Part shown: positions 18,078 through 41,065 of the stretch, one piece after another
Layout: every line of letters begins with the position of its first letter
Numbering within the stretch: the stretch's first letter is position 1
Assembly: GCF_024178385.1 (NCBI RefSeq)
Contig: NZ_JAMZMM010000007.1
Coordinates: 1 to 44,259, forward strand
Direction of reading: 5' to 3'
DNA length: 44,259 nt
DNA from: Limnofasciculus baicalensis BBK-W-15
GTDB taxonomy: Bacteria; Cyanobacteriota; Cyanobacteriia; Cyanobacteriales; Coleofasciculaceae
Program-made: the position numbers and the translations under genes
The notes under the pieces: model-generated
Databases searched by the model: none
Seen by the model: the letters and a program-made list of their open reading frames with translations, nothing else
What the model was told of the DNA's origin: nothing

Positions 18078-18404
18078 CTAAGATTCTGGATCAATTCCTA
18101 ACTCGCGCAATCGCTCTGCTAATTTATCGGCGCGTTGTTGGGCAAGTTGTACCTCTTGATCGTAAAATCTTTCTACGCCTAAACTTAAGAAAGCATCTGG
18201 CACAATAGCTGGTTTATCTGGGTGATAATAAATAGCCATATCAATCCCAAAAAACCAATCCATTCGTTCCGCCCAAAGTATTAGTAAGATAGCTTTGAGT
18301 AAGCCTGGTATTAATTCTTGTAGTTCGCTATCCACAGGTGTATCATCAGAGTCTGGTAGTTCATCGGCTGAGGGCAAGTGCCGAGGTAAGTTGTACTGTA
18401 ACAT
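18078..18404 (-). pseudogene. Internally deleted Uma2-family protein
   Basis: The 108-aa frame contains the typical start of a Uma2 (DUF820) protein (LPSADELPDSDDTPVDSELQELIPGLL, then MDWFFGIDMAIYYHPDKPAIVPDAFLSLGVER). It is joined directly to the typical C-terminal coiled tail (QEVQLAQQRADKLAERLRELGIDPE). The middle, about 110-130 residues carrying the PD-(D/E)xK-like core, is absent compared with usual members of this subgroup. The deletion is in frame and no stop is present, so a shortened protein could be made but should lack catalytic residues. An intact Uma2 gene of another subgroup is at 29139. Confidence 0.7.
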
Positions 18405-18431
18405 AGCTATTTCCTCAAAAATGCGATTTGG

Positions 18432-18501
18432 GTAGGGTGGGCAATATCCATAATTTGTTATCGGGTTGAATTACTTGATAAGTAGATATTGCCCACCCTA
18501 C
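18432..18501. repeat. 17-bp inverted repeat
   Basis: GTAGGGTGGGCAATATC (18432-18448) and its exact complement (18485-18501) enclose 36 bp between map and the deleted Uma2 gene. A related GTAGGGTGGGCAAT sequence ends the ORF at 40024-40248. Confidence 0.75.
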
Positions 18502-18540
18502 GTTTTGCCATTCACCTATTTATATTCCACAGATTCGCTC

Positions 18541-19368
18541 TCAAACATTATTACGATCTGTTAATATTTCATAACCATCCTCTGTCACCAATACTGTATG
18601 CTCAAATTGGGCTGACAAAGCATTATCTACAGTAACAGCAGTCCATTGATCTGATAGAATCCGGGTAAACTTAGAGCCAGCATTGACAATTGGTTCAATC
18701 GCTAAAGTCATGCCAGCTTTTAGCTTGACATTCGGCAATTGGCGGGTGCGAAAATTGAAAACAGAGGGTTCTTCATGGAGGTTTTGCCCGACACCGTGCC
18801 CTGTGAAATCTTCCACAACAGTAAAGCCATTAGCCTTAATTCGATCTTCAATTGCTCCAGCAATATCTAGCAAGAATTTTCCAGCTTTTACTTGGTAAAT
18901 TCCTTCATAGAGAGCTTCTTCTGCCACCTGAATTAATTTGGCAGCTTTTGGTTTAACTTCACCAACAGCAATAGTAATACAGGAGTCGCCATGGAAACCA
19001 TTGTAATAAGCTCCGGTATCAACTTTCAGAACATCACCTGTGCGAATCACTTTTTTCCGATTGGGAATACCATGGACTACTTCATTATTAATCGAAGCAC
19101 AAATAGAGGCAGGGAAACCATGATAACCCTTGAAACTTGGTGTTGCCCCCATCTCGCGAATGCGTTTCTCAGCATAAGCATCCAAATCGGCAGTAGTCAT
19201 CCCCGGTTTTACCATTTCGGAAATTTCTTTGAGTACCTTGGCGACAATTTGAGCCGCCTGTCTCATAATTTCAATTTCTGGCTCAGATTTGATGTGAATA
19301 CCTCGGCGTTGTTTTGGCGCACGGGCAGTTTTAGCGGGTTTGGACAGGAGGTTGCTGAAAATGTTCAT
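18541..19368 (-). CDS. map: Methionine aminopeptidase, type I
   Basis: Removes the initiator methionine from nascent proteins. The 275-aa product has the metal ligands and signatures [16 protein letters not shown] (two Asp), [14 protein letters not shown] (His), LAIEPIVN (Glu) and [10 protein letters not shown] (Glu), plus [21 protein letters not shown]-like substrate-pocket features. It carries a basic N-terminal extension of about 25 residues ([15 protein letters not shown]), common in some cyanobacterial copies. It lies 251 bp from cas2 and is not functionally connected to it. Confidence 0.96.
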
Positions 19369-19619
19369 TTATAATGAATGATTGGGATTTTGGGACTATC
19401 GCTCTCAATTGCCAAGGAAATAGGAGACAATTTTCCAATTGTTTCTATATTTTAAGTCTATTTGGGAATTACTGCACTGAGTAAATGTGACTAAATTCGC
19501 CCTCTTTCGTTTGTAGTAGGTGCTTCAGCGCCCCAATAGGTAGTAATAACTTCATCCACACTAACCGGATAGCATCGAAGGATATAGCACATCGCGCGAC
19601 AATCAGAAATCGTTGCCTT

Positions 19620-19913
19620 TTAGACAATTCGATACCGCGCCTCTTCAATATGCCAAGCATCGGGACGATTATAGGATGAGATAGAGCTAACGCAATCCTG
19701 AGAAAGACGAATTAGCAGCAAACTATCCTCAGCTTCTAATATTTTCTCCAATTGCCAGCGTAATTTTTCTCGTTCTCGCTGACTTAACCAACAGCGAAAA
19801 ATGGAATATTGAATTCTTTTCCCGTATCCTTGGATAAGATTATAAGCCTTGCGCCAGCGTTTAGGGCAACGAATATCGTAGGTAATTAAATACCAGTTTT
19901 TGGCTTCACTCAT
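19620..19913 (-). CDS. cas2: CRISPR-associated endoribonuclease Cas2
   Basis: A structural partner of Cas1 in spacer acquisition. The 97-aa product has the ferredoxin-like start WYLITYDIRCPKRWRKAYNLIQGYGKRIQYSIFRC. It contains the family aspartate (D13 in TYDI), the SxFRCWLS strand and a basic helix (SQREREKLRWQLEKIL). Length is normal and the frame is intact. It lies downstream of truncated cas4-cas1 on the same strand, but 300 bp of palindromic repeats now separate the two, unusual for genes that normally abut. No array follows on its 3' side within the window. Confidence 0.93.
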   Translation of the reverse strand: MSEAKNWYLITYDIRCPKRWRKAYNLIQGYGKRIQYSIFRCWLSQREREKLRWQLEKILEAEDSLLLIRLSQDCVSSISSYNRPDAWHIEEARYRIV

Positions 19914-20213
19914 GTTGGTAATTTATCCTTTTTTGGCATATTATCCAATACTTGTGTAATTTAATTGGATATTTTTTTGACTGAATTACGGTTTAATTTT
20001 GTTAGCTATTAGATTTTCTGTTAGTGGCAAAACCCGTCAGAGAATAAATTCTCACCTCTCATAGCTTAAGTCCGTTAAAACTGACAACTTACAGCAGTTG
20101 CGATAACCCGGCAGTGGTTCAAACCACTGTCTAATAGCTTAAGTCAGTTGAAACTGACTGAATTATACAAAGTTTTAGTCCATTTTAATGGACTTGAGCT
20201 ATGAGACGGAGAA
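19914..20213. repeat. Palindrome-pair cluster A between cas2 and cas1
   Basis: It contains three 48-bp units, each an 18-bp palindrome, a 12-nt linker and an 18-bp palindrome. The units are 20039-20086 (degenerate), 20112-20159 (CAGTGGTTCAAACCACTG / AGTCAGTTGAAACTGACT) and 20177-20224 (AGTCCATTTTAATGGACT / CGGAGAATTAATTCTCCG). The linker is TCTAATAGCTTA or its complement form TGAGCTATGAGA. The last palindrome (20207-20224) includes the stop codon of the shortened cas1. The first 120 bp after cas2 show nothing recognisable. Confidence 0.85.
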
Positions 20214-21554
20214 TTAATTCTCCGGCTGGAAAATTTCCATTAAATCTAGGGCTAAAGGAGATGCTTGAGAGCGAGGTTGGTGGTAGAATCCTAAAGCAGG
20301 TTCTAATCCTACCGTTAATATGGCATTCATGATGTCTTTCAGGAGCAAAGCATAGCCAAAACCTAACAAAGAATTAAACCGATCTTTGGGTGGGCGACGA
20401 TTGCGATGATCGAAGTGTAATTCTGGGGCAACATCTGGAGAAACGAGACAAGATAGGGCACTAAAATAGATAGCAGCTAGTTTACCTTCAAATCCCAATA
20501 ATGAGTCTATAGATTGGGCTTTGGGAACTTGTTTCAGGATGGCTTTCATTTGGGATATGGCATCTTTTAATTTGGCAGATACTACCTTCATCCCCCGCTG
20601 TCCTCGCATCAAAAACTTCCGCTGTCCTTGTCCGCGACAGGTAACTAATTGTCGGGCTAATTTGAGACAATTATGGGGATTATTTAAGCCTCCGTACTGG
20701 CGAATCCGGCGCTGAATGCTACCTTGTCTGGTATCGAAACTACCGATATATCGCCCACCTCCGGAAATAAAATGAACTCCGATTCCTTGGCTGGCACAAA
20801 AGTGTAATGCTTGGGTGGAAATTTGGGAGAAACTGTGGAGAACTACCTGTCCAATTTCGTGAATGGGGATAGTTTCAACAGGTTGATTGCGGCGGGTAAT
20901 TTTCAGTTGTTCTCCGGTTTTTCCTACAGATGTACCTGGTTCTAAAATATGAATGATTTGCCTTTCATCGTCTTTGGGAAATAGGCGTATGGGTTGGAAT
21001 TCCCGATTATGGGCGAGTCTTGCTTCTTCTGGTAAACAGACAGGAGCAAGAGAACAACTGGCACATAAACGTTCGTTATTTGTTACGGGAGGACGATAGG
21101 GTGAGGAACGGATAAAACGGGCTTTGGCAATTGCTTCGAGTACCGCATTACGCCCTTCCTCGTTGAAAGGGACGTGAATTAGTACGTTATCAGCATGATA
21201 GCGAATTCTTCCTTCATAAATGGTTATTTTGAGGGCAGATTCGATTAAATAACAATAGGCTAAAATTTGCAGCTTATCGCTTTCCCATGCTTGGGGTTGT
21301 TTCTGTTCATCTCGATAGCAACGCCCTCGTTTATGTTCGTAAGGAATGGTTTTGCCGTCGCGGGTACGGAGTGCATCCATTCGTCCCCGCAATCCTAATT
21401 CCGCACTTTCTAAATATAAATCTTCCCAAGCTTCATCTTCTTGTTTTTCGATTTCGACGTGGAGTCTTCTGCCAGCGAATACAGCGGCATTTTGGGTGTA
21501 GAGTTCTTCTACTTCTTCGAGGTAGAATAGGCATTGAATCAGTTCTGCGATCAA
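20214..21554 (-). pseudogene. cas4-cas1: Cas4-Cas1 fusion, truncated at both ends
   Basis: Spacer-acquisition fusion: Cas4 nuclease (residues 1 to about 190) and Cas1 integrase (about 190-446). The Cas4 core is visible (GRMDAL, PYEHKRG, DKLQILAY, and C-terminal CASCSLAPVC). Its start is missing: a TAG lies two codons before the only possible start (TTG), and the usual YCPRRFY-like cysteine motif is reduced to QCLFYLEEV. The Cas1 catalytic Glu (LLGFEGKLA), His (GFYHQPRSQ) and Asp (ALDLMEIF) are present, but the protein stops at IFQPEN, roughly 75-90 residues before the usual Cas1 end. The stop is supplied by a palindromic repeat (20207-20224). Integrase function is therefore doubtful. Confidence 0.85.
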
Positions 21555-21587
21555 CGCCTAACAGCGTCAAAGATTATTTCATGGCAG
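21549..21587 (-). repeat. Possible relic CRISPR repeat at the cas4 5' end
   Basis: Read on the minus strand: TAATCTTTGACGCTGTTAGG then CGTTGATCGC. It resembles, from memory, cyanobacterial repeats with a core like TTTGATGCCGT-AGGCGTTGA; the exact consensus was not checked. It lies about 20 nt after a good promoter and runs straight into the truncated Cas4 frame. Only one copy is seen. Confidence 0.3.
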
Positions 21588-21775: not shown

Positions 21776-21829
21776 TTGACACCTTTTGGTGAAAATTTTC
21801 AATTGACACTTTTTTGGATATATTTTAAT
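21776..21829 (+). promoter_or_regulatory. Direct repeats with TTGACAC upstream of cas6
   Basis: Two 27-bp copies in tandem, TTGACACCTTTTGGTGAAAA... at 21776 and TTGACACTTTTTTGGATATA... at 21803, agree at 19 of 27 positions and end at the cas6 ATG. They could be duplicated promoter or operator sequence. A TAATAT 17 bp after the second TTGACA overlaps the ATG, so it is unlikely to be the real -10 for this start. Confidence 0.35.
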
Positions 21830-22477
21830 ATGTTAGAAACTACAATATGCGAAGAAAAGGTTCAAAGCCTCCAACCACTGTTGGAAGTGGCATTTCCCGT
21901 GATGCCGGGATCTAAGATTTCTTCCCTCCACGGTTATTCCCTCTATGGCGCAATCAAGAAAAAATTGCCCTGGATTGGTGATTGTCGATTAACTTCAATC
22001 TGCTCAATTACGGGAGTGCGAGACGGGAAAAAGTTAATCGAAACCCAAGAGTTTTCGCGACTTTTCATCCGTACCCCACTCAGCAAAGCCAGCTTATTTT
22101 ATGGTTTAGCGGGGCAAACCCTAAGCATAGGAGAAGGACAAATTTCACTAGGAATACCAACTATTGCACCTCTGATTGCCAAATCAGTTTTGAGTGCCAG
22201 AATAGTCATCATTCACCTAAAAGAGGAGGGCGATGGCATTCTCCCGGACAAATTTCTAGCGGTTGCTACTCGCCAATTAAGAGAATTGGGTATTAATGGG
22301 CGGATATCTCTATTGCTAAGAGAGGGAGCGCTAGACAGAAAAGTCTTGCTAGTTAAGGGAGGTAAAATACCAGGTTATGGGGTGCAAGTTAGCGGCTTAT
22401 CTGAAACGGATTCGATTAAATTAAAAGAGATGGGAATCGGAGGGAAGAGAAAATTTGGGGCAGGTTTTTTTCAATGA
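21830..22477 (+). CDS. cas6: CRISPR endoribonuclease Cas6/Cmx6 (type I-MYXAN)
   Basis: Cas6 cuts pre-crRNA within the repeat. The 215-aa product matches the MYXAN-subtype Cas6 (Cmx6) layout. It shows an N-terminal strand LLEVAFPVMPGSKISSLHGYSLYGAIKKKLPWI, a middle domain (TPLSKASLFYGLAGQTLSIGEGQISLGIPTIAPL), and the C-terminal segment KGGKIPGYGVQVSGLSETDSIKLKEMGIGGKRKFGAGFF with the glycine-rich RNA-binding loop. A TTG frame at 21776 would extend it by 18 residues, but ATG 21830 fits better. It appears intact and is the first gene of the effector set, divergent from cas4-cas1. Confidence 0.9.
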   Translation: MLETTICEEKVQSLQPLLEVAFPVMPGSKISSLHGYSLYGAIKKKLPWIGDCRLTSICSITGVRDGKKLIETQEFSRLFIRTPLSKASLFYGLAGQTLSIGEGQISLGIPTIAPLIAKSVLSARIVIIHLKEEGDGILPDKFLAVATRQLRELGINGRISLLLREGALDRKVLLVKGGKIPGYGVQVSGLSETDSIKLKEMGIGGKRKFGAGFFQ

Positions 22478-22870
22478 TTGACAATCTTTTACATCGGGTT
22501 AAATTGAGATATTGGGTTAATCGTGACAATCCGACAATTCGAGAATCCGACAACCCGATAAACCGACAACCCGACAGTGGTTAAAACCACTGTCTAATAG
22601 CTCAAGTCGGTTGAAACCGACTGGATAATAATCTGCTGCGCAGTTAAATTGTATATTCTAAAAAAGAGTAAATTGGCTCAAATCCTTCCCCACTCCCTAC
22701 TCCCTACTCCCTACTCCCTACTCCCTGTCTTCATTATTCAATTTAGCTGCTTATCAGCTTATTGTCAGTCCATTTTAATGGACTTAAGCTATTAGCCGTA
22801 GAATTAATTCTACGGCGGGTAATTAGGCTTACGATTATCACCACTAACCATTGTCACCATCAGGTGTTGA
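22478..22870. repeat. Palindrome-pair cluster B in place of most of cas3
   Basis: No intact gene. Bases 22530-22574 carry CCGACAA/CCCGATAA short repeats. Palindrome pair 22575-22622 (CAGTGGTTAAAACCACTG - TCTAATAGCTCA - AGTCGGTTGAAACCGACT) and pair 22767-22814 (AGTCCATTTTAATGGACT - TAAGCTATTAGC - CGTAGAATTAATTCTACG) flank an ACTCCCT heptamer array (22689-22727). The arrangement equals cluster A with an enlarged spacer between the pairs. Confidence 0.85.
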
Positions 22871-23449
22871 ATCCAAACAACCAATAGGATTAACTGGGCA
22901 TTAATTCAACGATTGGGGAGGTTAAATCGTTGGGTTAATCGAACAGCAGGAGGTAAATATCAACTGCAAACTGGGAGAATATGTCAAGCTTTAATTTATC
23001 CTTGGGATAACAAACACCCCTATAAACAGGAAGAGTTGGAAACAGGTACAACTTTTGTAAATGCTTTAACAGGGAAGAGAGTCAACCAAATTCAGTTAGC
23101 CCAACAAATCAGCAAAATATCTATAGCAGCACCACTACCCGAAACCTCTGAGTGGTTGAAAACTTGGCAAGCTACTTCAGGGGAATTAGTACCCCTTGGT
23201 TATACTATCCAAGTAATCTTAGCAGATGACATAGCTAAAATTTTCCAACCCTTGGTAAAGCCATCCTTGGAGGCACAAAAGTGGGCTGTTTCTGTAAGAA
23301 TTACTAATAAAACCAAGAATTGGGAACGTAACAAAGCATTAAAATTCTATCGAATTGCGCCAACGAAAGAGGTATATTATCACCCAGAAATTGGTGAATA
23401 CGAACCAAATAATGAATTACTCAAAAATCGATATGGGCACAAAACATAA
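22871..23449 (+). pseudogene. cas3: C-terminal remnant of Cas3 helicase-nuclease
   Basis: An open frame from just after a TGA (22868) encodes NRINWALIQRLGRLNRWVNR near its start, helicase motif VI (QRxGRxxR) of Cas3. About 170 residues of C-terminal accessory region follow (ICQALIYPWDNKHPYKQEELETG..., ending KNRYGHKT). The HD nuclease and helicase motifs I-V, normally about 500 residues, are missing; cluster B occupies their place. No good start codon precedes motif VI (first possible TTG at 22913). The 3' end overlaps the cas8 start by up to 38 nt, the natural junction. It cannot cut or unwind DNA. Confidence 0.75.
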
Positions 23450-25157
23450 ACTCGCCAAACTACCAAGCAAAAGGACAATTAACCTATCCCTTTGGTCATC
23501 TTTTAATACCCCCTTACACCGTGCAGGTTTAGCCGGAATTTCCATGGCACTCAAACACCTACAACCCGACAAAGGTAAAGTAATTGATTGGGAATTAAAT
23601 ACCAATAAAATTACCTTAAACTGGACTTGTACCGATAGAGAAGCCCTAACCTGGTTATTAGATAACACCTATCAGCTTACTCCTGAAGGCATCATTAAAA
23701 TTCCCGCATTAGGAGGAATTAGTTCAGATACGGCAATTGTGATGCACAACGGTATCCTCAATACCTTTTTGCAGCATCCCAAATCCGTTGCCTCTAGTGG
23801 CATCCAAAACCGCGTCATTCAGTTAGATGAATCCCAACAAATCGAAGTCAAATACAAAGCCATTACAGGATACAATCACCAAAACCTCAAATCTTACAAT
23901 CACCAACAAATAAATGACTTACCATCTCAAACCAAGAAAAAAACCGACAGTCGGAAAAAACTCTATAACTCCCAGGGTTACTTTGAGCCATTTATTCGCA
24001 TAGTAAGCTGGCTTTACCCCGGTGCAACCGATAAACACGTTGCATTAGGCGGTGCAACAGAATTGCAAGAATCACCTGGGGGCTTTATCAGCTTACTCTT
24101 TGCACCAATAGCCTGTAGCTATTATCAAGTGCGATCGCGTCTCAAAGCAAGTAAATCCCGCTGGGCGCTGATTATTCCCCATGTAGAAGACTTAGAAACT
24201 TTTGCCAACATTCGTTTGACAGAAGGGTTTCAAGTAGTAAGTTATGATAATTATTTTGCCTCTGGTGTCTCCGATGCTTCCCTCCGCTATCTGATGCTAA
24301 TTGCTGGAGATAAAACAGCTACTTATCAAAAGGTTCAAACTTGCGATGTTTGGAGCTTTGGTGCTGTAGATTGGTCCCAACAACAAACTATTACTCAGCG
24401 TCATGTGGTGGATTTATCTCCCCAACTCAGGGAAGAGTACGAGCTTTGTCAACTTCACTTAGAAAACGGGAAAAAAGTCGGAAAAAATGGCACATTTATT
24501 GATGTCAGTTTTGGGCGAGAAATTGCCGCAGAAAACTTGGTGCAAGGGAAACCATGGTATCGGGGAATCCATGAAATCCTGAAATTTAACTCCGAAGTAT
24601 TTACCCTCCTCACTTATGAAAGGAAAAGTCTCCGCAATATGAAAGAATCAACGATAGAAAAAAACCTCACTGAAGAAATGGCAACCCTGTTTAGCGATGC
24701 CTTTACTTGGCAATTGCGACAGCGATTTAGCGAATTAAAGCGCAATACATCATCAGGCAAACCTAACTACGATAAAGTTAGAACCGATATACTGATGTCA
24801 ATTCGCGATTGCCGCACATCACAAGCTTTTACTAAGTTACAAACCTTAGTTTTCAGTCGTCCCACCTCAGCTAAAAATCCCTTTCTACAAGGAATTGAAT
24901 TAGCTAAATTTTACCTGTGGATGACGCAGCACTGGCAAGATTGCTTAAGTTTGATGACACTGGCAATTGTGGGTTACCAAGATCCTTGGAAAACCCCAAG
25001 AATAGCTAAAATATTAGAGTCTAAGGGGTTGAAAAAACCGCAATACTTGATTGATGATACTGATGAAGAAGCTGTCGATTCTATCTCTCAGATACCAGAA
25101 TCAGATGAGGATGACAATCCTTATCAATCTACCGATGACAATCCTAGCAGCGATTGA
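23412..25157 (+). CDS. cas8a1: CRISPR-associated Cas8a1/Csx13 (MYXAN subtype) large subunit
   Basis: Large subunit of the crRNA-guided DNA-binding complex. The 581-aa product (from ATG 23412; ATG 23433 is an alternative) has the Csx13 N-terminal hallmark SLWSSFNTPLHRAGLAGISMALKHL, the central YFEPFIRIVSWLYPGATDKHVALGG and GGFISLLFAPIACSYYQVRSRLKA segments, a helical C-terminal part, and an acidic tail (DESDEDDNP-like). Frame and length look intact. It follows the Cas3 remnant with a short overlap and precedes cas7 by 214 bp that contain repeat cluster C. Confidence 0.85.
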   Translation: MNYSKIDMGTKHKLAKLPSKRTINLSLWSSFNTPLHRAGLAGISMALKHLQPDKGKVIDWELNTNKITLNWTCTDREALTWLLDNTYQLTPEGIIKIPALGGISSDTAIVMHNGILNTFLQHPKSVASSGIQNRVIQLDESQQIEVKYKAITGYNHQNLKSYNHQQINDLPSQTKKKTDSRKKLYNSQGYFEPFIRIVSWLYPGATDKHVALGGATELQESPGGFISLLFAPIACSYYQVRSRLKASKSRWALIIPHVEDLETFANIRLTEGFQVVSYDNYFASGVSDASLRYLMLIAGDKTATYQKVQTCDVWSFGAVDWSQQQTITQRHVVDLSPQLREEYELCQLHLENGKKVGKNGTFIDVSFGREIAAENLVQGKPWYRGIHEILKFNSEVFTLLTYERKSLRNMKESTIEKNLTEEMATLFSDAFTWQLRQRFSELKRNTSSGKPNYDKVRTDILMSIRDCRTSQAFTKLQTLVFSRPTSAKNPFLQGIELAKFYLWMTQHWQDCLSLMTLAIVGYQDPWKTPRIAKILESKGLKKPQYLIDDTDEEAVDSISQIPESDEDDNPYQSTDDNPSSD

Positions 25158-25371
25158 TAAAAATGGCAAAATCACCATTAGTTTCTAGACTCCATTAAAA
25201 TGGACTCTCATTATGATTCAGTCAGTTTTAACTGACTTGAGCTATTAGGCAGTGGTTTGAAGCACTGTCGGGTTATCGCTACTCCTGCCAGTTATCAATT
25301 CTAACCGAATCAAGCTATCACAGCCAAAGATTTTTCCCCTGACATAACTATTGAAAAAGGAGAATTCACCC
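25158..25371. repeat. Palindrome-pair cluster C between cas8 and cas7
   Basis: It contains palindrome ACTCCATTAAAATGGACT (25189-25206), then pair 25220-25267: AGTCAGTTTTAACTGACT - TGAGCTATTAGG - CAGTGGTTTGAAGCACTG. Read in reverse it is the cluster A order without its last palindrome. The flank CGGGTTATCGC is also shared with cluster A. A ribosome-binding site AAGGAG (25356-25361) precedes cas7. Confidence 0.85.
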
Positions 25372-26295
25372 ATGACATTTCATCTATTTGGCAATATCAT
25401 TACCCCCCGTGGTGTCGCAGCTAACAATCGCGGTGAAACCGAGGGAAATCGCACCACTCTACCTAAAGTTTTTTGGGGAGATAAACTCCATGTTTCCGTA
25501 TCGGCAGAAGCCATTCGCTGGGCAATTCGCTACTACTGGCAAATGATGGAAATTCCCGTTAATCGCCAGTGGATTGAAGAAACCCAAGATATCAAACTTA
25601 TGCTAGAAAATGACAAAAATAAGTTCGATTCAACCCAATTTATTGATGACGACATCATGGGTTATATGGATGCCAAACCGGGCAAAAATGAAGTACCAGT
25701 GAAACGACGGGGCGCTTTAGAAGTGACTCGCGCTGTTTCCCTCCAAAGTGCCGAAAGAATTGAAATCACCTTCAATTCTAAAAGTGGTAGTAAAGGCAAA
25801 AAAGGCGGACAAGATGCCAACGCAGAAAAAGCAAAAATTTCCATCTATTCTACCGAAACAATTACCACTCGATTTCAGTATGGTTTTGCCATTACACCCC
25901 AACGGCTAGTTAAACCACCAAGAGTATTAGATGTAGTGAATGCGATTACCAAATTACCTAATGTTGGCGGTAATCATGCCCGTTTCTTATTTGACTTTTC
26001 CCCAGAATCAGTTATTTTTCGTTGGACACATCATCCCGTACCGCAATTTCTCTATTGCTTTGAACAGCCAGATGCGGATACCCTAACTGCACCGCGACTG
26101 CAACAGTTAATTACCTGTGAGGAAATACCTCCTCAAGAAATTTGGATTTTGGGAGGTTATGCTTTTACAGAAGAAGCAGAAAAATTAGCAGAAAAGGGAG
26201 TAAAAATATACCCCAGTATTCGGAAAGGGGTAAAAGATTTAACTGCTCAGATTGCCCAAGATTTAGGGTTTAACATTGAAAGAGCAGTGGGGTAG
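25372..26295 (+). CDS. cas7: CRISPR-associated Cas7/DevR (Cmx7)
   Basis: Backbone subunit that coats the crRNA. The 307-aa product has the DevR-family start MTFHLFGNIITPRGVAANNRGETEGNRTTLPKVFWGDKLHVSVSAEAIRWAIRYYW (autoregulator fold), then PVKRRGALEVTRAVSL, RFQYGFAITPQRLVKPPRVLDVVNAI and NVGGNHARFLFDFSPESVIFRWTH. The ATG at 25372 follows AAGGAG by 10 nt; a TTG at 25351 is less likely. It looks intact and is followed by cas5 after 65 bp. Confidence 0.9.
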   Translation: MTFHLFGNIITPRGVAANNRGETEGNRTTLPKVFWGDKLHVSVSAEAIRWAIRYYWQMMEIPVNRQWIEETQDIKLMLENDKNKFDSTQFIDDDIMGYMDAKPGKNEVPVKRRGALEVTRAVSLQSAERIEITFNSKSGSKGKKGGQDANAEKAKISIYSTETITTRFQYGFAITPQRLVKPPRVLDVVNAITKLPNVGGNHARFLFDFSPESVIFRWTHHPVPQFLYCFEQPDADTLTAPRLQQLITCEEIPPQEIWILGGYAFTEEAEKLAEKGVKIYPSIRKGVKDLTAQIAQDLGFNIERAVG

Positions 26296-26360
26296 AGTTT
26301 GGGGTGCGCAGCCTCGCACCCAATCTAAAATATATCCTTACTATCTCAAAAAAAAGACAG

Positions 26361-26954
26361 ATGCTTTTACTAAAAATCACAGCACCCTTTGCCACATTCA
26401 CAAATTCCCGTTCTAGAGAGTATGCTGCCTCCTATTTATATCCACCACCTGCCACTATTTATGGTACGCTATTGGCATTAGTGGGAGAAACTGACCGAAC
26501 CAAACATCTAGGAGTGAAAATTGCGATCGCAGTTGCCTCTCTCCCCAAGCCTACCACAGTACTGAGAACCTTTAAACGCCGCAAGAAAAATGAGATTAAC
26601 CATCGATCTAACTCTAAACCAGATTATCAGGAGGTTTTATGTGGATTAAACTTGGTAGTATCTGTCGATTCAACTCAAGATGCCCATAATCTAGAAAACC
26701 GCATAGCCCAAGCACTAAGACACCCAGAAACCATTGACAGATTTGGAGGATTAAGTTTAGGGGAAAGTCGAGATTTAATTGACGATTTGCAAATTTTAGA
26801 TCGATTACCACCATCCATAGAATGGTTAGTTAAAGACGATCGTGGTAAAATTACACTACCTATTTGGGTTGATTATGATGGTTCCGAAAAAACTCGGTGG
26901 CAAATGTTTAGTTTGGGTACTTTTAGTGAGAAAGTATTTTGTCAAATTACTTGA
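26361..26954 (+). CDS. cas5: CRISPR-associated Cas5/DevS (Cmx5)
   Basis: Caps the 5' handle of the crRNA in the effector complex. The 197-aa product starts MLLLKITAPFATFTNSRSREYAASYLYPPPATIYGTLLALVGE, the typical Cas5/DevS N-terminus. It continues with VLRTFKRRKK, PDYQEVLCGLNLVVSV and RFGGLSLGESRDLIDDL, and a C-terminal strand region. An in-frame upstream start at 26304 would add 19 residues without family resemblance, so ATG 26361 is chosen. It is the last gene of the effector set; nothing CRISPR-like follows before sixA. Confidence 0.88.
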   Translation: MLLLKITAPFATFTNSRSREYAASYLYPPPATIYGTLLALVGETDRTKHLGVKIAIAVASLPKPTTVLRTFKRRKKNEINHRSNSKPDYQEVLCGLNLVVSVDSTQDAHNLENRIAQALRHPETIDRFGGLSLGESRDLIDDLQILDRLPPSIEWLVKDDRGKITLPIWVDYDGSEKTRWQMFSLGTFSEKVFCQIT

Positions 26955-27131
26955 TCTTCAGCTAGTTATTTCTGATGTTTAATATCCTCTTCCATTTAGT
27001 CATTTTAGAGTGAGAAAGCGGCTTGGGTGAGAAACTTCTACCGCGCTGCACTAGCTATATCTCCAAAATCCGCCGCCGCCCCACTGTAGATAACCCTGTA
27101 AATACTATAATCTAGAGAAAAATAACAACTA

Positions 27132-27632
27132 ATGATGCAACTCTACCTAATTCGCCACGGCATAGCCACTGAAGCAGAAGCAGATACCAACGATACAGAA
27201 AGAACCCTAACTGAAAAAGGGCGACAGAAAACTCGCCAAGTAGCCAAGCAACTGCGGGACAAAGAACTCCATTTTGACCTAATTTTAACCAGTCCCCTAA
27301 TACGGGCGCGAGAAACTGCTACTATTCTCAAAGAGATTGGACTAAGTTCCCAAATAGAAGAATTTACCAGTCTATCTCCTGACGGTGATATCCATACCTG
27401 GATAAACTGGCTAGAAGAATGGCGGAAAAATACTACAATTAAAGGATACTTAGCCCTAGTCGGTCATCAACCAGATTTAGGTAATTGGGCGGAAACCTTA
27501 GTATGGGGTGAGACAAAAGGAAAATTAGTTCTCAAGAAAGCAGGAATTATTGGATTAACCCTTCCAGAAACCGGAAACCCTGTTGGTGAAAGCCAATTAT
27601 TTTTGCTCACTTCCCCGAAATGGTTCCTTTAA
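27132..27632 (+). CDS. sixA: Phosphohistidine phosphatase SixA
   Basis: The 166-aa histidine phosphatase superfamily protein has the catalytic RHG at residues 8-10 (LYLIRHGIATEAEA), LTSPLIRARETATIL, and the second catalytic His in LALVGHQPDLGNWAETL. The length and the absence of a larger mutase domain match SixA, which dephosphorylates phosphohistidine on signalling proteins in E. coli; the cyanobacterial target is unknown. Two consecutive ATG codons begin the frame. It is monocistronic. Confidence 0.92.
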   Translation: MMQLYLIRHGIATEAEADTNDTERTLTEKGRQKTRQVAKQLRDKELHFDLILTSPLIRARETATILKEIGLSSQIEEFTSLSPDGDIHTWINWLEEWRKNTTIKGYLALVGHQPDLGNWAETLVWGETKGKLVLKKAGIIGLTLPETGNPVGESQLFLLTSPKWFL

Positions 27633-35039: not shown

Positions 35040-36578
35040 CTAACAACCAACAACTAATTCTGATTCCCAATCTTGAGTTGTGTCTAATATTGTAACCAGA
35101 GATTGCTCCTCCTCCGTAAAGGGTTCAGCGGCTGCTTCCTGACTTGCTAAGAGATCTGCGGTAGCATCAGATACATCACCAGTGCGGGATAGAAGGCGAT
35201 CGCGCAATACGTCCATCGGTGCGGTGCAATAGAGGATGGACAGGGGAATCTGATGCGTCTGAGCTTGTGCGATCGCAGATTCGCGTAATCCCTGTTTGTC
35301 ATATTTGGCATCTAAGATCGCTGTAAATCCCTGATTAGCCAGTAAAATACCCAATTCTAATAACCTATTATAAGTCTTTTGGGTCATTTCAGCGGTATAA
35401 AGTGTATCTTCTCCTTTCTCTTCTAGGGGCATTCCGGCTAAGTGTTTCCGCACTGCGTCTGAACGGAGGTGAATTGCACCCAATTTTCGGGCTAATTTTC
35501 GGGCTACGGTACTTTTTCCTGCACCAGATAAGCCTGACATTAAAATTATCCTTCCTCGCTCTATTTTCGTGTAATTCCATGCCAACCGATAATAATTAGC
35601 GGCGGTTGTACTTGCTTCTTGTTTCGCCTCTGCTGATACTGCTGAATCGTCTAATAAAAATGATGTTACCTTAGCCCTTACATAAGCTTGCCGACTTAGG
35701 TATAATGGCAATACCTGCAATCCTGACCAATCGCCAGTTTGTTCTAGATAAGTATTCAAAAAAGCATTGCCCAAATCCTTCCTTCCCCGCGCCTCTAAAT
35801 CCATTACAGTAAAGGCGACATCGTACATGACATCCACAAACCGAAATGGTTCGTTAAATTCAATACAGTCAAATAGCTGAATTTTGTTATGCCACAGACA
35901 AATATTTCTCAGGTGTAAATCCCCGTGACATTCCCGAATGAAGTTATTGTCCCGACGCTGGGCTAGTAATTCTGCTTGTTCGGCAAAAAAGCGATCGCTA
36001 AATGCCTTAGTCTCCTCATACTGCTCTTGAGTTTGCGAACCACCAATATATTTGAGGGTGTGCTGATAATTATCTTTAATAAATTCGCGGATTTTGGCTA
36101 CTTCGCCAAAGCTTCTAATGTAATCGCTAGTTTTGCATTTACTATGGAAATGGGCAACAGTTTTACCCAATTCCTCCATCTGTACCTCTGTTAGCATTCC
36201 CTCTTCAAACATAGTACTTAAGAGGCTAGACTGAGGAAATTGGCACATTTTTACGGCATATTCTACAGCTTCACTAGTGCCACCGAGAATAAAGCGATTG
36301 CCCTCTTGAGTAATGGCTAAAACATCCAGATAAATTTCCGGGGCATTCGGCTGATTTAAGCGAATTTCTTCATGGCAAAAATGCTCCCTCTGTGCTATAG
36401 TAGAAAAATCTAAGAAACCAAAGTTAACTGGCTTCTTAATTTTATAGGCAAAATCTCCTGTCAGGAGTACATAAGAAATATGGGTTTGCAGCATCTGAAT
36501 CGGTTCCGTGACTGGGTGGGGATAAAACCCAGGTTCCATCATTTGCTCGATTAAGGGGGGAAGGGTTGTCTGGCTCAT
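35040..36578 (-). CDS. Phosphotransferase/AAA kinase fusion protein
   Basis: The 512-aa product has two kinase-like domains. Residues about 15-330 form an aminoglycoside-phosphotransferase-like fold with the Brenner motif CHGDLHLRN (HGDLH at 218-222) and IQLFDCIEFN, a metal-binding Asp. Residues about 340-512 form an AAA_33/zeta-toxin-type P-loop kinase with Walker A GLSGAGKST (349-357) and HLRSDAVRKHL. Substrate unknown. ATG 36578 lies inside the right end of a 204-bp repeated leader, so the first two or three residues come from the element. An 86-residue upstream extension of the frame is repeat-encoded and rejected. Confidence 0.88.
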   Translation of the reverse strand: MSQTTLPPLIEQMMEPGFYPHPVTEPIQMLQTHISYVLLTGDFAYKIKKPVNFGFLDFSTIAQREHFCHEEIRLNQPNAPEIYLDVLAITQEGNRFILGGTSEAVEYAVKMCQFPQSSLLSTMFEEGMLTEVQMEELGKTVAHFHSKCKTSDYIRSFGEVAKIREFIKDNYQHTLKYIGGSQTQEQYEETKAFSDRFFAEQAELLAQRRDNNFIRECHGDLHLRNICLWHNKIQLFDCIEFNEPFRFVDVMYDVAFTVMDLEARGRKDLGNAFLNTYLEQTGDWSGLQVLPLYLSRQAYVRAKVTSFLLDDSAVSAEAKQEASTTAANYYRLAWNYTKIERGRIILMSGLSGAGKSTVARKLARKLGAIHLRSDAVRKHLAGMPLEEKGEDTLYTAEMTQKTYNRLLELGILLANQGFTAILDAKYDKQGLRESAIAQAQTHQIPLSILYCTAPMDVLRDRLLSRTGDVSDATADLLASQEAAAEPFTEEEQSLVTILDTTQDWESELVVGC

Positions 36579-36776
36579 AAAAACATCTCCGTCGTTGGAA
36601 ACTCTGTGTCTACCCTGCGGGAAGCAAGCTATAGACCAGAGAGGAAAACGCGGCAGCGGTTTTAACCGCCTACCCCTTGCGGGGCGGAGGAGTATGGTTG
36701 CTCCTCCGTGGAGATATGGTTGTCTCCAATCTCTTTCGAGTAAAGTTAGCTTTGACCTGTTATCTGAGCTTGTTAG
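36573..36776 (-). promoter_or_regulatory. 204-bp structured leader element, copy L
   Basis: This is the reverse complement of 40808-41011 with one mismatch in 204 (SD reads CGGAGATG instead of CGGAGGTG). On the minus strand it ends in a Shine-Dalgarno sequence, seven bases and ATGAGC, the start of the kinase/phosphotransferase gene. It can form five consecutive hairpins, described under copy R. An antisense open frame inside it, identical in both copies, is not considered a gene. Confidence 0.85.
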
Positions 36777-40807: not shown

Positions 40808-41011
40808 CTAACAAGCTCAGATAACAGGTCAAAGCTAACTTTACTCGAAAGAGATTGGAGACAACCATATCTCCACGGAGGAGCAACCATACTCCTCCGC
40901 CCCGCAAGGGGTAGGCGGTTAAAACCGCTGCCGCGTTTTCCTCTCTGGTCTATAGCTTGCTTCCCGCAGGGTAGACACAGAGTTTCCAACGACGGAGGTG
41001 TTTTTATGAGC
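40808..41011 (+). promoter_or_regulatory. 204-bp structured leader element, copy R
   Basis: Five hairpins can form in order: H1 GGAGA/TCTCC (40857-40874); H2 CGGAGGAG/CTCCTCCG (40876-40899), with the same 8-nt loop CAACCATA as H1; H3 CCCC-GCAA-GGGG (40900-40911, GNRA loop); H4 GCGGT/ACCGC (40915-40928); H5 CTCTGGTCTA with TAGACACAGAG (40943-40982, one bulged A). The Shine-Dalgarno CGGAGG (40993-40998) precedes ATG 41006. The 3' arm of H2 (CCTCCG, 40894-40899) is exactly complementary to this SD, allowing an alternative fold. Confidence 0.85.
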
Positions 41012-41065
41012 GAGAATAAGCTATGCCAGCGACAATCCTGGTTGTGGATGATGAGCCAGACTTAG
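41006..41065 (+). CDS. Short upstream ORF overlapping the cyclase start
   Basis: ATG 41006, supplied by leader copy R with a good SD 7 nt upstream, opens a 19-codon frame ([19 protein letters not shown]) that ends at TAG 41063-41065. It overlaps the first 43 bases of the main gene in another frame. It may couple or reduce translation of that gene, or may simply be an accident of element placement. Confidence 0.45.

Follow-up and report, generated by a model that had tools for sequence, protein, structure and literature searches.

The cas4-cas1 fusion gene in the 44,259-nt stretch of DNA analysed here (the window) is, with high probability, a recently broken gene within a decaying type I-MYXAN CRISPR–Cas locus, from which a deletion took the final 91 cas1 codons and, with them, some 25 bp of an abutting dispersed palindromic repeat. 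The reading frame passes the conserved His and Asp of Cas1 and ends at PEN-stop inside a palindrome of that repeat, as a sequence-only reading of this DNA had described. Beyond that reading, we find a truncation at the 5′ end of the same gene, a truncated cas3, a missing array and a scar of the locus in a genome of the same genus. The features are as follows.

19620–19913, minus strand: cas2, apparently intact, 97 aa
19914–20028, no strand: AT-rich stretch from the repeat to cas2, without trace of the cas1 3′ end
20029–20229, no strand: copy A of the palindrome-rich dispersed repeat; its right end is the cas1 junction
20207–20224, no strand: palindrome CGGAGAATTAATTCTCCG, which provides the E and N codons and the stop (triplet 20214–20216)
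20214–21554, minus strand: cas4-cas1 fusion open reading frame (ORF) of 446 codons starting at a TTG, both ends lost
21533–21548, no strand: 16 nt from the CRISPR-repeat remnant to the first cas4-homologous base
21549–21577, plus strand: I-MYXAN CRISPR repeat, decayed, next to the break at the cas4 5′ end; the ORF's mechanical TTG start lies within it
21776–22477, plus strand: cas6/cmx6
22564–22822, no strand: copies B, same repeat family as copy A, ending some 76 bp before the cas3 break
22898–23449, plus strand: cas3 remnant, C-terminal fifth only
23355–25157, plus strand: cas8a1/cmx1
25191–25343, no strand: copy C, same repeat family as copy A, between cas8 and cas7
25351–26295, plus strand: cas7/devR
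26304–26954, plus strand: cas5/devS

By profile and homologue comparison, the ORF is a type I-MYXAN Cas4–Cas1 whose gene is broken. Profile searches returned a match above the cut-off to TIGR03983 (cas1_MYXAN; positions 1–256 of 347, 394.2 bits versus 358.05) and one below the cut-off to NF049935 (positions 6–457 of 546, 348.7 bits versus 560); the Cas1 domain is therefore not full-length, with 91 residues missing. Homology to one full-length relative spans residues 28–461 of its 552, and the 33 full-length loci that we examined are 68–81% identical to the ORF. The ORF resembles the fusion described by these two profiles in its Cas4 and Cas1 regions, its Glu/His/Asp residues and its cas2 neighbour; it differs in lacking about 27 N-terminal codons and the last 91 Cas1 residues. 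The Glu, His and Asp lie at E356, H425 and D437, in motifs common to the full-length reference, and we take them to be the catalytic residues of Cas1. PMC10504553 describes a Glu mutant in the Cas1 domain of a different protein. A full-length relative matches PDB 7mi4_A, a solved Cas4/Cas1 fusion.

Exactly 91 residues follow the break point in all 33 homologous loci examined, which are mostly the best-scoring ones (L010–L015, being fragments or distant paralogues, and L016–L018, copies of L005, L004 and L002, were excluded). The absence of a C-terminal segment was thus correctly anticipated by the sequence-only reading, although its estimate of 75–90 residues was too low. With an intact C-terminus as query, the lost end was not found in the window's own genome, where the search returned nothing beyond one match at E 1.3 and, on contig C405, a paralogue at 37%. 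Nor does the 316-bp stretch between the break and cas2 show any trace of it (top score 28, against a mean of 27 and a maximum of 45 in 200 shuffles). A simple frameshift in cas1 was ruled out, since the lost end has no counterpart in any frame after the stop. The distance from the cas1 stop to the cas2 start is 4–12 nt in 27 of the 31 loci with a cas2 match (two of the 33 had none) and 84–295 nt in the other four, compared with 300 bp in the window. This gap had been described as filled by the repeat, a description that holds for 20029–20229 but not for the AT-rich 19914–20028, which has no match in the same-genus genome G001.

Across the order, 61 of 388 genomes carry a homologue at E ≤ 1e-100, and none of the 60 besides the window's own shows its cas1 end (42 checked at the sequence level, 18 by open-frame length alone, 552–581 aa; in G029 the contig ends before the place of the cas1 break). 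The same short C-terminus in distant strains, the counter-case named in the sequence-only reading, was therefore seen in no homologue whose end was visible. Eight of the 60 are broken otherwise: G060 has a different 3′ truncation, its end replaced a few codons further on and close to a contig end; cas4-cas1 is split, interrupted or carries stops in G066, G372, G270, G301, G222 and G241; and in G073 (L166 2600–3300) a Cas4–Cas1 gene without its Cas1 part is followed by a CRISPR array. G384, too, lacks the 5′ part of cas4-cas1, at a contig end; one in-frame TAG occurs in each of G083 and G348. The gene thus breaks fairly often in these assemblies, and the window's break is seen only here.

The junction lies between cas1 and the repeat. 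The ORF ends in ...LALDLMEIFQPEN-stop (in a longer quotation, ...FYHQPRSQASPLALDLMEIFQPEN-stop), and codons 443–446 (Q, P, E and N) as well as the stop belong to the repeat. Alignments of other repeat copies to copy A mostly end at 20229, where the window becomes cas1, and 18 of the 26 copies with enough flank continue for about 25 nt of common sequence beyond this point. Because copy A lacks these 25 or so nucleotides, the junction cut both cas1 and the repeat. The comparison supports a deletion with its breakpoint at the repeat, and the sequence-only proposal of a repeat-mediated insertion or deletion stands in that form; a clean insertion does not. The bases common to both partners at the join are only CC, so that we infer, rather than read from the junction itself, that the repeat likely mediated the deletion.

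The repeat is dispersed and present in many copies. A 62-nt query has at least 83 matches in the window's own genome, at least 48 of them at E < 1e-5 (both counts include the query place itself and copy B, and are lower bounds, 40 of 93 first-look candidates having been scored), and it is therefore not a chance palindrome. In G001, the 20029–20229 stretch matches at least nine places at 85–90% identity, two of them over nearly the whole length, and one at 75% (again a lower bound, from 40 scored of 448 candidates). Both palindromes are largely kept among 29 aligned copies of a 53-nt end module, the window's included, with compensatory changes at two pairs of each (in 20207–20224, two pairs change on both sides); four of the 29 have one unpaired position in the second palindrome. 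The repeat has 29-nt inverted arms at 86% identity, the left ends of its copies vary and no target-site duplication was recognised among them. We did not file it as a MITE with clean ends, given these varied left ends and the 18 of 26 copies that extend past the window's right end. Like the palindromic repeats dispersed in bacterial genomes (REP/REPIN- or MITE-like), it is a short, many-copy mosaic of palindromes with some compensatory changes; it differs in having no recognised target-site duplication, and we assign it to no named family.

Other lineages, too, have repeats separating an intact cas1 from cas2. In G176 (L155 2481–3053), the 295-nt gap after an intact cas1 holds stretches of the same repeat family (74–77% identity over 92–100 nt, with E-values down to 8e-15 in a two-sequence search). 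In G078 (L154 1684–2209), the cas1–cas2 gap has palindromes recognisable by eye and no significant match to the window element. The arrangement in G176 is a plausible intermediate, and it suggests two steps. The dispersed repeat would first have inserted between cas1 and cas2; a deletion at short homology may then have removed the last 91 cas1 codons and about 25 bp of the repeat. The reading frame now enters the repeat and stops at its AATTAATT core.

The other end of the gene is broken as well. Homology to cas4 begins at about 21532, and about 27 codons, including the first Fe–S cysteine, are gone: where full-length relatives read ...ALHALAYCPRLFYLEEVEELY (with small variations), the window reads ...ELIQCLFYLEEVEELY. 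According to PMC5704561, all Cas4 members have four conserved cysteines; the Fe–S module here is incomplete, with CASCSLAPVC present at 164–173 and the YCPR motif absent, and does not have all four. Against the CRISPR repeats of G046, the remnant at 21549–21577 scores 42 and 38, compared with at most 34 for 60 shuffles of the repeat scoring 42 across the whole window; against the repeats of six other relatives it scores 29–33, inside the shuffle range. It is the best place in the window for all eight relatives' repeats, tied once, and it is oriented relative to cas4 as the upstream arrays of G017 and G046 are. The 16 nt between this remnant and cas4 could be a leftover spacer.

Elsewhere in the window, cas6, cas8, cas7, cas5 and cas2 look intact. 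The missing part of cas3 was not found elsewhere in the window's own genome, in which no match to the cas3_core profile reaches the cut-off. No CRISPR array was found in the window, where the single repeat remnant is all that we detected, and a pattern scan of the genome returned no I-MYXAN repeat clusters; the window thus does not hold a complete I-MYXAN system, with cas3 and a CRISPR array. Counting the window, 11 loci have both cas6 and cas8 placed, and cas3 is shortened in three of them, namely the window, G012 and G237 (length was taken from spacing, and frames were also read for the three short and two long ones). In G012 (L157 7710–8597) and G237 (L153 7225–9143), cas3 is shortened differently, within I-MYXAN effector operons whose effector genes are open; cas4/1–cas2 was not seen in the 16 kb read of G012.

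Nine of the ten examined relatives in which both cas6 and cas4/1 are seen have their cas genes on one strand, with cas6 first and cas2 last. The window has a divergent layout (cas2–cas4/1 on the minus strand, cas6 onward on the plus strand), and G222 shares it, with three CRISPR repeats between the halves. A fresh inversion splitting cas4 was considered as the origin of this layout and rejected: a short cas4 N-terminal motif was not found next to cas5 or elsewhere in the window, and the layout of G222 is the same. At 36569–36776 and 40808–41015, the window also carries a 208-nt inverted repeat at 99% identity, its arms 4 kb apart; it may be a mobile element or a segment that can invert.

Apart from the ORF, the genome has a single Cas1 match, on contig C405; it is partial (profile positions 135–326), and we therefore found the assembly to show no intact Cas1. 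There, a Cas4 N-terminus in another frame precedes the Cas1 part, and cas2 and a 30-repeat array lie behind it. This second cas4-cas1 (L062 1016–2136, G000:C405) has a type I-D Cas1 as its best match, below the cut-off, and looks broken inside.

In G001, which lacks the locus, the sequences corresponding to window positions 18149–19679 and 27093–27632 lie 202 bp apart, and the scar between them (L121 1064–3343, G001:C307) still has the final 19 cas2 codons with their stop. Its flanking genes are presumably methionine-aminopeptidase-like and sixA-like. Judged from this cas2 scar, the I-MYXAN locus was very probably once there and was deleted later. In a FastTree tree of the window and 32 homologues (without support values; L083 was dropped before alignment), the window gene groups with four same-family genomes, on a terminal branch of 0.206 compared with 0.092–0.134 in those relatives. 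The window has two private changes at otherwise invariant columns, one of them the repeat-derived Q, and other rows have 0–6. So few private changes in 446 open codons mean that the loss is recent or that the remnant is still selected, which one genome cannot separate; the loss is presumably recent, and the protein presumably cannot acquire spacers.

An assembly artefact, in which the true cas1 is intact and was misjoined through a many-copy repeat, has only a small probability. The assembly is a draft of 762 contigs and the junction falls at the edge of a high-copy repeat; however, the join sits where the repeat is cut short rather than within shared repeat sequence, cas2 is in its expected place and strand, the missing cas1 end is on no other contig of an assembly with a completeness of 99.26%, and there are separate breaks at the 5′ end and in cas3. 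We consider it very improbable that a short Cas4–Cas1 is made and used without the first Fe–S cysteine and the last 91 residues. Its 446 open codons, the retained E356, H425 and D437 and the scarcity of private changes would fit such a protein, yet two separate regions are lost, the junction recurs in no homologue checked, no I-MYXAN array was found into which it could integrate, cas3 is broken too and the terminal branch is longer than those of the four same-family relatives.

That a mobile palindromic element inserted cleanly into cas1, displacing a C-terminal part that is still present, has next to no probability, even though the element is dispersed in the genus and related elements lie between cas1 and cas2 in G176: the lost cas1 end is neither beyond the repeat nor elsewhere in the genome, which excludes such an insertion on this assembly. 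There is also a slight chance that the locus is shrinking to a nuclease-free Cas6–Cas8–Cas7–Cas5 complex with another use, such as DNA binding without cutting, which would make the Cas4–Cas1 remnant a by-product or residual partner; the open effector genes beside a shortened cas3 in the window and, with different cas3 breaks, in G012 and G237 bear on this reading. A deletion that broke the gene within a decaying locus is the reading that we prefer.

Degraded CRISPR–Cas loci with cas pseudogenes are a general kind. The window resembles them in its truncated cas1, cas4 and cas3, in the absence of a detected array and in the deletion of the locus in a same-genus genome, and differs in a stop supplied by a dispersed repeat and a possible TTG start in a CRISPR-repeat remnant. 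No such locus is named in the titles and abstract openings listed by literature searches (for most of these, part of the papers found). The finding is ordinary CRISPR–Cas gene decay, well resolved and of low novelty, yet with unusually clear intermediate stages. It also carries a warning, in that a Cas1 scoring above a curated cut-off can sit in a dead locus, as here. Taken together, these genomes would trace the stepwise death of an adaptation gene, from the tight cas1–cas2 arrangement of most relatives examined, through G176, where a repeat separates an intact cas1 from cas2, and a deletion at such a repeat in the window, to the cas2 scar in G001.
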